From: Afipia sp.
GTDB taxonomy: Bacteria > Pseudomonadota > Alphaproteobacteria > Rhizobiales > Xanthobacteraceae
NCBI GenBank assembly: GCA_017474385.1
Contig: JAFVHU010000085.1
Span: 1-64,000 of the forward strand
Length of the DNA: 64,000 nucleotides
Direction: 5' to 3'
In this document: in pieces, positions 3,776 to 44,893 of the stretch
How positions within the stretch are numbered: position 1 is the first letter of the stretch
How the letters are laid out: each line of letters starts with the position of its first letter
The notes under the pieces: generated by a model
Databases searched by the model: none
What the model was told of the DNA's origin: nothing
Seen by the model: only the letters and a program-made list of their open reading frames with translations
Program-made: the position numbers and the translations under genes

Positions 3776-3803
3776 CCAGTGTGGTGGTTCGCAAGTCCGC
3801 ATC
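3776..3803. repeat. Single arm of the composite hairpin element, abutting the purM start
   Basis: A 26-base stretch inside 3778-3803 matches exactly the reverse complement of the last arm of the composite element at 6974-7139 (core GGTGGTTCGCAAGTCCGC). Only one arm is present, so it cannot form the hairpin. It ends directly at the purM ATG (3804) and occupies the place where a Shine-Dalgarno site would normally be; I see none there. Confidence 0.85.
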
Positions 3804-4877
3804 ATGACCGATCAAAAATCCGGCCTGACCTATTCATCCGCCGGCGTCGATATCGACGCCGGAAACCGGCTCGTGGACCTCATCAAGCCGCTGGTGCGGG
3901 CCACCGCGCGGGCGGGCGCCGACGCCGAAATCGGCGGATTTGGCGGGCTGTTCGACCTCAAGGCCGCCGGGTTCAAGGACCCCATTCTGGTCGCCGCCAC
4001 CGACGGCGTGGGCACCAAGGTCAAGATCGCCATCGAGACCAGCATCCACAGCGGCATCGGCATCGACCTCGTGGCGATGTCGGTCAACGACCTTGTGGTC
4101 CAGGGCGCCGAGCCGTTGTTCTTCCTGGACTACTTTGCCTGCGGCAAGCTCGACCCCGAGGCCACCGCCTCGATTGTGGCGGGTGTCGCCGAGGGCTGCC
4201 GCGAATCCGGCTGCGCCCTGATCGGCGGCGAGACCGCCGAGATGCCCGGCCTCTACAAGGACGGCGATTACGACCTTGCCGGCTTTGCCGTGGGTGCCGC
4301 GGAACGCGGCACCCTGCTGCCGCACAAGGACATCGGGCCCGGCGACGCGGTGATCGGCCTCGCCTCCTCCGGCGTTCATTCCAACGGCTTCTCGCTGGTC
4401 CGCAAGGTCGTCGAGAAATCCCGCGTGACGTTCGACGCGCCGGCGCCCTTCGCGCCCGTGATGACGCTCGGCGGCGCATTGCTCGCCCCGACCAAGCTCT
4501 ATGTGAAGTCTTGCCTTGCGGCGATCCGCCAGACCGGCGCGGTCAAGGGGCTCGCGCACATCACCGGCGGCGGCTTCACCGACAACATTCCGCGCGTGCT
4601 GCCGAAACATCTCGGCGCCCGCATCGATCTGACCGCCGTCCCCGTCCTGCCGGTGTTCAAGTGGCTGGCCGCCGAGGGCAACATCGCCGAACTGGAATTG
4701 CTGCGCACCTTCAACTGCGGCATCGGCATGATCGCGATCGTCAAGCGCGAACAGTTCGTCGAGGTGATGGACGTGTTCGCGCAGAACGGTGAACGCGTGG
4801 TCGATCTCGGCGAAGTCGTCGAAGCTTCGGGTGACGAGCGCGTGATCTACGACGGCCACCTCAACCTGGCGGATTGA
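3804..4877 (+). CDS. purM: Phosphoribosylformylglycinamidine cyclo-ligase (AIR synthetase)
   Basis: This 357-residue enzyme catalyses the fifth step of purine synthesis, the ATP-dependent closure of FGAM to aminoimidazole ribonucleotide in the cytosol. The N terminus [15 protein letters not shown], the glycine-rich [10 protein letters not shown] segment, the [18 protein letters not shown] block, the GGETAEMPG motif and the [15 protein letters not shown] segment are all typical of PurM. The length is normal for the family. One base separates its stop from purN, indicating an operon. The start is unusual: a repeat arm lies directly against the ATG and no ribosome binding site is visible. Confidence 0.98.
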
Positions 4878-6862: not shown

Positions 6863-6973
6863 GTTGGTCCTCGATGTCCCAGCAACGCACGGGCTCGCCA
6901 AACGTTCATGACAGCGAACGGCGATCACGCAGAATTCAGCCTGCGGTTGCGGCCTGAAAACAAAAACCCCCGG
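6863..6973. other. Leader region of the lipoprotein gene
   Basis: Together with the composite repeat this forms the 315-base gap between the lipoprotein gene and the cold-shock gene. No further gene or confident promoter is visible in this part. Confidence 0.5.
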
Positions 6974-7139
6974 CTAGTGTCCTGAATCCGAAGTTCGCAT
7001 TACTTTGAAGCGGCCTCCATAGCGAATTTCGGATTCAAAAGGACACTAGCAAATCATAATTCTAGTGTGGTTTTGGTTCGCAAGTCCGCTGAAAGAATGT
7101 GCCGCAATGTTGATGCGGACTTGCGAACCACCACACTAG
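6974..7139. repeat. Composite double-hairpin element, copy A
   Basis: Two long inverted repeats lie side by side. Hairpin 1 (6974-7049) has arms beginning CTAGTGTCC and carrying GAATCCGAA/TTCGGATTC, a 23-base loop and a three-A bulge in its 3' arm. Hairpin 2 (7062-7139) has arms CTAGTGTGG and GGTTCGCAAGTCCGC with a three-T bulge in its 5' arm. A 12-base AT-rich spacer (7050-7061) separates them. The two inner arms are nearly complementary to each other, so an alternative central hairpin is possible. The element sits 38 bases beyond the stop of the cold-shock gene. A second full copy is at 44731-44893. Confidence 0.9.
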
Positions 7140-7177
7140 GTGGCCGGGGGAGCATCGCATTCCGTTGTATCGCGACG

Positions 7178-44730: not shown

Positions 44731-44893
44731 CTAGTGTCCTGAATCCGAAGCTCGCTTCATGTTGCAGCATTATCGGTAGCGAGTTTCGGATTCAAAAGGA
44801 CACTGGAAAACTATGATTCTGGTGTGGTTTTGGTTCGCAAGTCCGCAAAACCGCGCCGTAGAAATGATGAGGACTTGCGAACCACCACACCAG
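44731..44893. repeat. Composite double-hairpin element, copy B
   Basis: Same architecture as copy A: hairpin 1 (44731-44806) with a 23-base loop and an AAA bulge in the 3' arm, a 12-base AT-rich spacer (44807-44818) and hairpin 2 (44819-44893) with a TTT bulge in the 5' arm. Compared with copy A, CTAG/CTAG in hairpin 2 has become CTGG/CCAG, and TTCGC/GCGAA in hairpin 1 has become CTCGC/GCGAG; both changes keep the pairing. It begins 2 bases after the cfa-like stop and lies upstream of dnaB. Confidence 0.9.

Follow-up and report, generated by a model that had tools for sequence, protein, structure and literature searches.

The 64,000-nucleotide stretch of Afipia sp. analyzed here (the window; contig JAFVHU010000085.1, positions 1 to 64,000) carries two full copies of a mobile element. 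The element is about 165 bp long and consists of two inverted, bulged hairpins; it occurs in many, mostly intergenic copies, is present or absent at given sites between congeners, and has inserted cleanly at CTAG-like tetranucleotides. With a probability somewhat above one half, we interpret it as a non-autonomous, hairpin-ended element, mobile within the Hyphomicrobiales, that is moved in the manner of REP or IS200 sequences and inserts at CT^AG without duplicating its target. Bacterial genomes are full of short palindromic repeats, and the mechanism of spread is known for few of them. Many pairs of filled and empty Afipia sites show the junctions directly, and these point to insertion without target duplication. 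Mobility and clean insertion at a CTAG-like tetranucleotide are both aspects missed by the initial annotation of this DNA, which had described a structured double-hairpin repeat.

Architecture, copy number, and mobility

Copy A occupies positions 6974 to 7139 of the plus strand (166 bp, full length). As delimited by a DNA fold and the consensus, hairpin 1 (6974 to 7049) pairs arms 6974-6998 and 7022-7049 around a loop at 6999-7021, with a 3-nt bulge at 7038-7040; a 12-nt A+T-rich spacer (7050 to 7061) leads to hairpin 2 (7062 to 7139), which has arms at 7062-7089 and 7115-7139 and a 3-nt bulge at 7072-7074. Copy B (44731 to 44893, also plus strand) is flanked by a cyclopropane synthetase-like gene and dnaB. 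The initial annotation had placed both copies at these coordinates, and the architecture it gave them (23-nt loop 1, 12-nt spacer, both 3-nt bulges) was reproduced; the two paired arm substitutions it named, TTCGC/GCGAA to CTCGC/GCGAG and CTAG/CTAG to CTGG/CCAG, are present in the sequence. Across 40 copies of this genome, loop 1 measures 22 to 24 nt, loop 2 22 to 26 nt, and the spacer 10 to 14 nt (85% A+T), and the bulge is 3 nt long in 37/40 copies for hairpin 1 and 40/40 for hairpin 2. Folded as single-stranded DNA, copy A reached −50.7 kcal/mol, compared to a shuffle mean of −17.65 (z, −10.8). A profile of hairpin 2 matches the opposite strand of copy A hairpin 1 (E, 5.5e-6), with partial agreement in the loop by eye. 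Hairpin 2, when reversed, resembles hairpin 1, so the element as a whole can be described as a single imperfect inverted repeat, about 165 bp long.

Other proposals about the element fared differently. GANTC sites do occur in both arms of hairpin 1, as had been noted, in 33 of the 40 copies of this genome (hairpin 2 has them in 0/40), and both sites are retained in 40 of 43 copies from a mixed-genera set. A role for CcrM methylation at these sites is unsupported, and methylation looks incidental because some copies have lost GANTC. A switch between three-arm and two-arm forms also found no backing, since in all 40 copies the two separate hairpins were more stable than pairing of one hairpin with the other (RNA energies). 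The element is indeed not a described family in Rfam: the whole window gave no match at the gathering score, and the 26 matches near copy A at E values up to 10 were all below gathering (best E, 0.0053). By eye, in the copy sets A1 and A2 alike, the loops of both hairpins keep a short TTGCNGC/GCNGCAA motif amid variable sequence, making the loops of hairpins 1 and 2 complementary to each other; such loops might touch or bind a protein.

The initial annotation had made the idea of a family depend on further copies being found genome-wide, and the search confirmed a dispersed one. Blastn located at least 40 double copies in this genome, with 40 of 69 candidates scored. When these copies were used to build a covariance model, it found at least 70 distinct full-length places, 30 of them not in the model; this count is a lower bound, since 150 of 1,662 candidates were scored. 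In the single-contig relative G012, the count is 69 or more, and a profile scan covering 1.6 Mb of that genome added three. The model matches 25 of 25 genomes of the genus. At an E value of 0.001 it matches 105 of 198 genomes of the family, in 32 of the 47 genera sampled, and at 1e-6 it matches 60 of 397 genomes of the order; in a small sample of other families, it matches 0 of 16 genomes. A pattern scan of named genomes found at least 109 stretches; the matches listed are mostly from Afipia and also from Bradyrhizobium, Nitrobacter, Rhodopseudomonas, Pseudorhodoplanes, Pseudolabrys, Rhodoplanes, and Aestuariivirga. Among plasmids, eight Roseibium/Labrenzia records carry a relative, each with 61% query coverage. 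On a large Roseibium algicola plasmid, a relative with different stem sequences sits between thioesterase and SDR genes (L194:4001-4166). Viral contigs gave no match to the hairpin 1 pattern, and phages gave no match.

Comparison with congeners provides the evidence that the element is mobile. For 26 of the 30 best-scoring copies of G012, which has at least 69 (28 or more of 40 flank bases matching), and for 26 of 40 copies of this genome (30 or more of 40 matching, some alignments being of modest quality), composite queries made of joined flanks located an empty site in one or more of three congeners. The copy B site, for example, is empty in G014. In 1.6 Mb of G012, which holds 21 complete and 7 partial copies plus two weak solo hits, 17 of the 21 complete copies are intergenic, overlapping coding sequence by less than 20% as judged with a crude gene caller, compared to 9% of random placements. 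Genes flanking the G012 copies are variously tandem, convergent, or divergent, and 33 of 69 copies are on the plus strand, with no clear bias in orientation. A replication-strand bias was considered and rejected on the same count, with the origin guessed from GC skew.

Covariation of the stems and its possible causes

In the 40 copies of this genome, 98.0% of 1,997 stem cells pair, and two-sided changes occur at 34 of 50 pairs, compared to 7.2 in shuffles and 7 to 11 in slid versions of the structure. In 43 copies from many genera, among which the stems of hairpin 2 are largely different in sequence, 98.0% again pair and two-sided changes occur at 35 of 50 pairs (shuffles, 14.8; slid versions, 10 to 14). 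An R-scape-like tree simulation with all column pairs as background passed 4 and 5 pairs and none outside the structure. With 112 sequences, 2 pairs pass the strict tree-based test against all column pairs, and 23 of the 50 stem pairs pass the tree-based null as a set of 50, compared to 27 of 14,828 other pairs at the same threshold. Covariation is thus greater than in shuffled or slid controls and than expected under a tree-based null, and the claim that structure is kept beyond sequence stands. Covariation no better than chance had been named as the outcome that would count against it, and it is not what this set of pairs shows.

What keeps the stems paired is a separate question. Mismatches of the G-T and A-C types are equally common (16:17 in copy set A1, 23:24 in copy set A2, and 20:17 between orthologous copies), so neither strand is favored as an RNA, and the equality suits DNA or use of both strands. 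Orthologous copies gave 23 partly non-independent comparisons, with 4 of the 20 orthologues retrieved having been excluded for a weak flank match. Stems differ at 3.4% of sites, loops at 10.3%, and flanks at 6.4%, indicating that stems are held more than their surroundings. In the same comparisons, 11 changed pairs are compensated and 56 are uncompensated. Stems are therefore retained after insertion by function, by repair between the arms, or by both.

One explanation is that the copies are retained for regulation at each site, as structured RNAs or terminators. The strong covariation, the slower change of orthologous stems, and the intergenic position of most complete G012 copies would all agree with it, but G-T mismatches are not in excess over A-C, a close relative lacks the element at the majority of examined sites, and neighboring genes are tandem, convergent, or divergent. 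A regulatory element of this kind is most unlikely, and the equal mismatch counts led us to reject RNA function as the main reading. We caution that a bacterial hairpin may covary strongly without being a functional RNA.

Covariation could also stem from mutation and not from selection, if template switching or repair between the arms keeps the palindromes perfect. Such a process would account for G-T and A-C intermediates that are both rare and equal in number, for in-place compensated changes at 11 pairs, and for the outer tetranucleotides described below, which conform to the inner arms rather than to the target. It fits less well with the excess of uncompensated over compensated changes, which shows that any arm correction is incomplete, or with a 3-nt bulge that persists in nearly every copy of one hairpin and in all copies of the other. 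As the origin of the covariation, we regard mutation as unlikely, and it may operate together with REP/IS200-like movement.

The insertion joint and candidate moving enzymes

To place the joint between element and target, we used the 31 of 52 empty sites whose target measured exactly 4 nt and whose flanks matched at 33 or more of 40 bases, leaving out the other 21. The target tetranucleotide is CTAG-like (C in 24, T in 15, A in 18, and G in 22 of the 31 sites). Of the informative places in the outer halves of the junctions (left positions 1 and 2, right positions 3 and 4), 11 of 45 retain the target base in filled sites; in the inner halves, 2 of 45 do (Fisher P, 0.014). In 20 permutation tests, uncorrected, the target left a signal on the left at position 2 (P, 0.001) and on the right at position 4 (P, 0.002); position 4 on the left (P, 1.0) and position 2 on the right (P, 0.67) showed none. 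This pattern of surviving bases fits insertion at CT^AG (CN^NG) and supports a joint at that point with no duplication of the target. A joint between target bases 2 and 3 means that the moving unit begins with AG and ends with CT, and that each outer tetranucleotide was half target and half element at insertion. Three observations count against this joint. Informative positions are few, and at 34 of the 45 expected places the target base is gone, so later change must be assumed; L025, a copy in this genome, keeps a target base in the wrong half; and at the copy A site, removal of the element on this model would leave a loop that exceeds that of relatives by one base.

The outer tetranucleotide is the complement of its inner arm in 28/31 sites on the left and 23/31 on the right. 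It equals the target in 5/31 sites on the left, 7/31 on the right, and 3/31 on both sides, and the left and right outer tetranucleotides are identical in 14/31. These counts bear on the possibility that the element is a MITE, that is, a deletion derivative of a DDE insertion sequence that duplicates 4 bp at CTAG-like sites, with the duplicated target later altered by exchange between arms. MITEs such as RUP, Correia/NEMIS, and ERIC are likewise short, non-autonomous, palindromic, and intergenic, and they show TA or other duplications made by DDE transposases. A CTAG-like 4-bp target, terminal inverted repeats, ends of the form TG...CA beside the tetranucleotide, and three sites where both outer tetranucleotides equal the target (L260, L270, and L042, with CTAG itself as the target in two) would be expected of a MITE. 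Yet the outer tetranucleotides seldom equal the target and match each other in fewer than half of the sites, and the target signal is confined to left position 2 and right position 4, where a duplication predicts all positions on both sides. These are small numbers; with no target duplication indicated, the element differs in this respect from RUP, Correia/NEMIS, and ERIC, and we consider a MITE origin improbable.

The inner arm of hairpin 1 tracks the target at position 2 (P, 0.023), but no such signal was obtained for the inner arm of hairpin 2. A link of this kind would arise either from an arm that chooses the target or from one that is later matched to it, and the data fit both. On the first alternative, the element could represent a new gene-less, single-strand-mobilized class in which the 4-base inner arm of each hairpin pairs with and selects a CTAG-like target, using an enzyme that is neither Y1 nor DDE. 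This is an unlikely interpretation; if true, covariation of the hairpin arms would be a record of target choice. A comparable guide-like arrangement is described for IS608 of the IS200/IS605 family, which shares hairpin ends, a tetranucleotide target, and an inner tetranucleotide complementary to the junction tetranucleotide (PMC6006769). IS200/IS605 elements insert at a fixed tetranucleotide without duplicating it; here the half-junction pattern favors no duplication, and the target is only CTAG-like. The element differs from IS608 in having no internal Y1 gene and in placing the complementary tetranucleotide at the other foot of the same hairpin, paired with the outer one.

Junctions that are half target and half element would also be expected if a circular intermediate with one CTAG joint were inserted, without duplication, by a short-core recombinase, either an IS110-type DEDD enzyme with a CT core or a tyrosine recombinase. 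Long bulged hairpins are not known to have a role in IS110 integration, which counts against such an intermediate, and we consider this route very improbable.

The closest resemblance in form is to REP/BIME sequences and their RAYT (TnpAREP) nucleases. TnpAREP is reported to cut at CT beside its REP hairpin, with the hairpin bulge being needed in Escherichia coli, and the GTAG superfamily shows intergenic, high-copy, inverted pairs of bulged hairpins with a CT-adjacent joint like those of the element (PMC8266576). The element could thus be a REP/BIME proper, mobilized by a RAYT of the same genomes that is present or was so until recently. However, its hairpins measure 76 and 78 nt with a base-paired CTAG at the foot, compared to 20 to 50 nt with an unpaired GTAG, and a RAYT gene was not found in G012 or this genome. 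The Y1 transposase profile PF01797 had no match over the cutoff in this genome and none at an E value of 0.01 in G012 (a single contig with many recent copies), G594, G017, G014, or G024. Overall, at that E value 5 of 20 genomes have a match and 15, G000 among them, do not. Six Y1 loci (eight stretches) were inspected; none is flanked by the element, and one (L336) has an element remnant about 1 kb away. A RAYT link at L336 was rejected, as the Y1 gene there is flanked, by eye, by another REP-like repeat. Mobilization by a RAYT of these genomes is accordingly quite unlikely.

Other repeats of related bacteria offer partial parallels. CGTC-tagged palindromic repeats of Bradyrhizobium and Rhodopseudomonas palustris (PMC3733652) form inverted dimers with no linked transposase gene; each is a 20- to 40-bp stem-loop with 4- to 5-base loops and an unpaired CGTC tag at one end. 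The element shares the bacterial group, the inverted dimers, and the lack of a linked transposase and differs in its paired CTAG ends, 76- to 78-nt hairpins, and 22- to 26-nt loops. RIME, Sm-repeats, and ABC motifs of Rhizobium and Bru-RS of Brucella are, on the level of description, also palindromic intergenic repeats of related bacteria. Br-REP1 and Br-REP2 of Bradyrhizobium japonicum are intergenic palindromic repeats of a related genus, and their printed consensus sequences, 20 and about 40 nt, lack CTAG-TGTCC/TGTGG when compared by eye (PMC5082802). Within the open-access literature on palindromic repeats of Bradyrhizobium, Rhodopseudomonas, Afipia, Nitrobacter, and Rhizobium, on Bru-RS, and on CTAG-targeting non-autonomous elements, no description was recognized as the double-hairpin element, and one may exist elsewhere; the same holds for the repeat descriptions drawn on from PMC2267715, PMC2573895, and PMC2245857.

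Under REP/IS200-like movement, by analogy with TnpAREP and the IS200/IS605 transposases, a single-strand enzyme would recognize the hairpins, cut after CT, and paste the unit into its target. The outer tetranucleotides, half target and half element, would later be brought into register with their pairing partners. Hairpins would be maintained because only well-paired copies move, probably helped by repair between the two arms, and most copies probably have no host function. It counts against this preferred reading that the Y1 searches of this genome and G012, together with a scan of 1.6 Mb of G012 for an autonomous copy enclosing a transposase between the hairpins, turned up no moving enzyme. 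With the usual REP nuclease family not found in G012, a single contig rich in recent copies, the search for the enzyme behind such an orphan repeat becomes concrete in cultured Afipia.

The copy A terminator and variant forms

Copy A lies within an intrinsic terminator of a cold-shock gene (PF00313) that precedes it on the minus strand. The interrupted terminator spans 6962 to 7150 (minus strand), with arms at 7144-7150 and 6967-6973, a T-run at 6962-6966, and the element in its loop (by eye and fold); folding indicates that the arms can still pair around copy A. Five relatives (G012, G594, G019, G017, and G024) have a clean, empty site, as does G014 when judged by alignment, and relatives with the empty site have an uninterrupted intrinsic terminator there (by eye). 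Insertion aimed at terminator loops was considered and rejected: flank arms of at least 6 bp surround 2 of 40 copies in this genome and 0 of 30 in G012, near control means of 0.66 and 0.19, so the copy A site looks like a one-off.

The distribution of copy A is patchy, with the same old insertion in three lineages whose sisters have a clean terminator (window positions 6962-7150; L197, L199, L200, L201, L202, and L205). Orthologous copies are present in G596 and G018, and these group with the copy in this genome as a single clade (support, 0.99) out of 181 copies. The flanking regions, by contrast, give a tree in which each carrier has an empty sister (G014; the G012/G594/G017 group; G024). 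Simple insertion does not explain this pattern; one clade of copies with empty sisters needs repeated precise loss or transfer between species. Identities of the 120-bp right flank (89% to G014, 86% to G596, and 82% to G018) give no sign of transfer, the left flank being too divergent for comparison.

Variant forms of the element were also seen. In single hairpins at L140:3120-3192 and L336:294-367, by eye, the 5' arm comes from hairpin 1 and the 3' arm from hairpin 2, as in internal deletions of the double element. Two copies (L108:3832-4097 and L192:6458-6719) have about 90 to 100 bp of extra DNA in the spacer between the hairpins. In the window, a lone arm of hairpin 2 (3777 to 3809, minus strand) extends to the start codon of an AIR synthetase-like (purM-like) gene, so that an old element fragment supplies the end of the leader.
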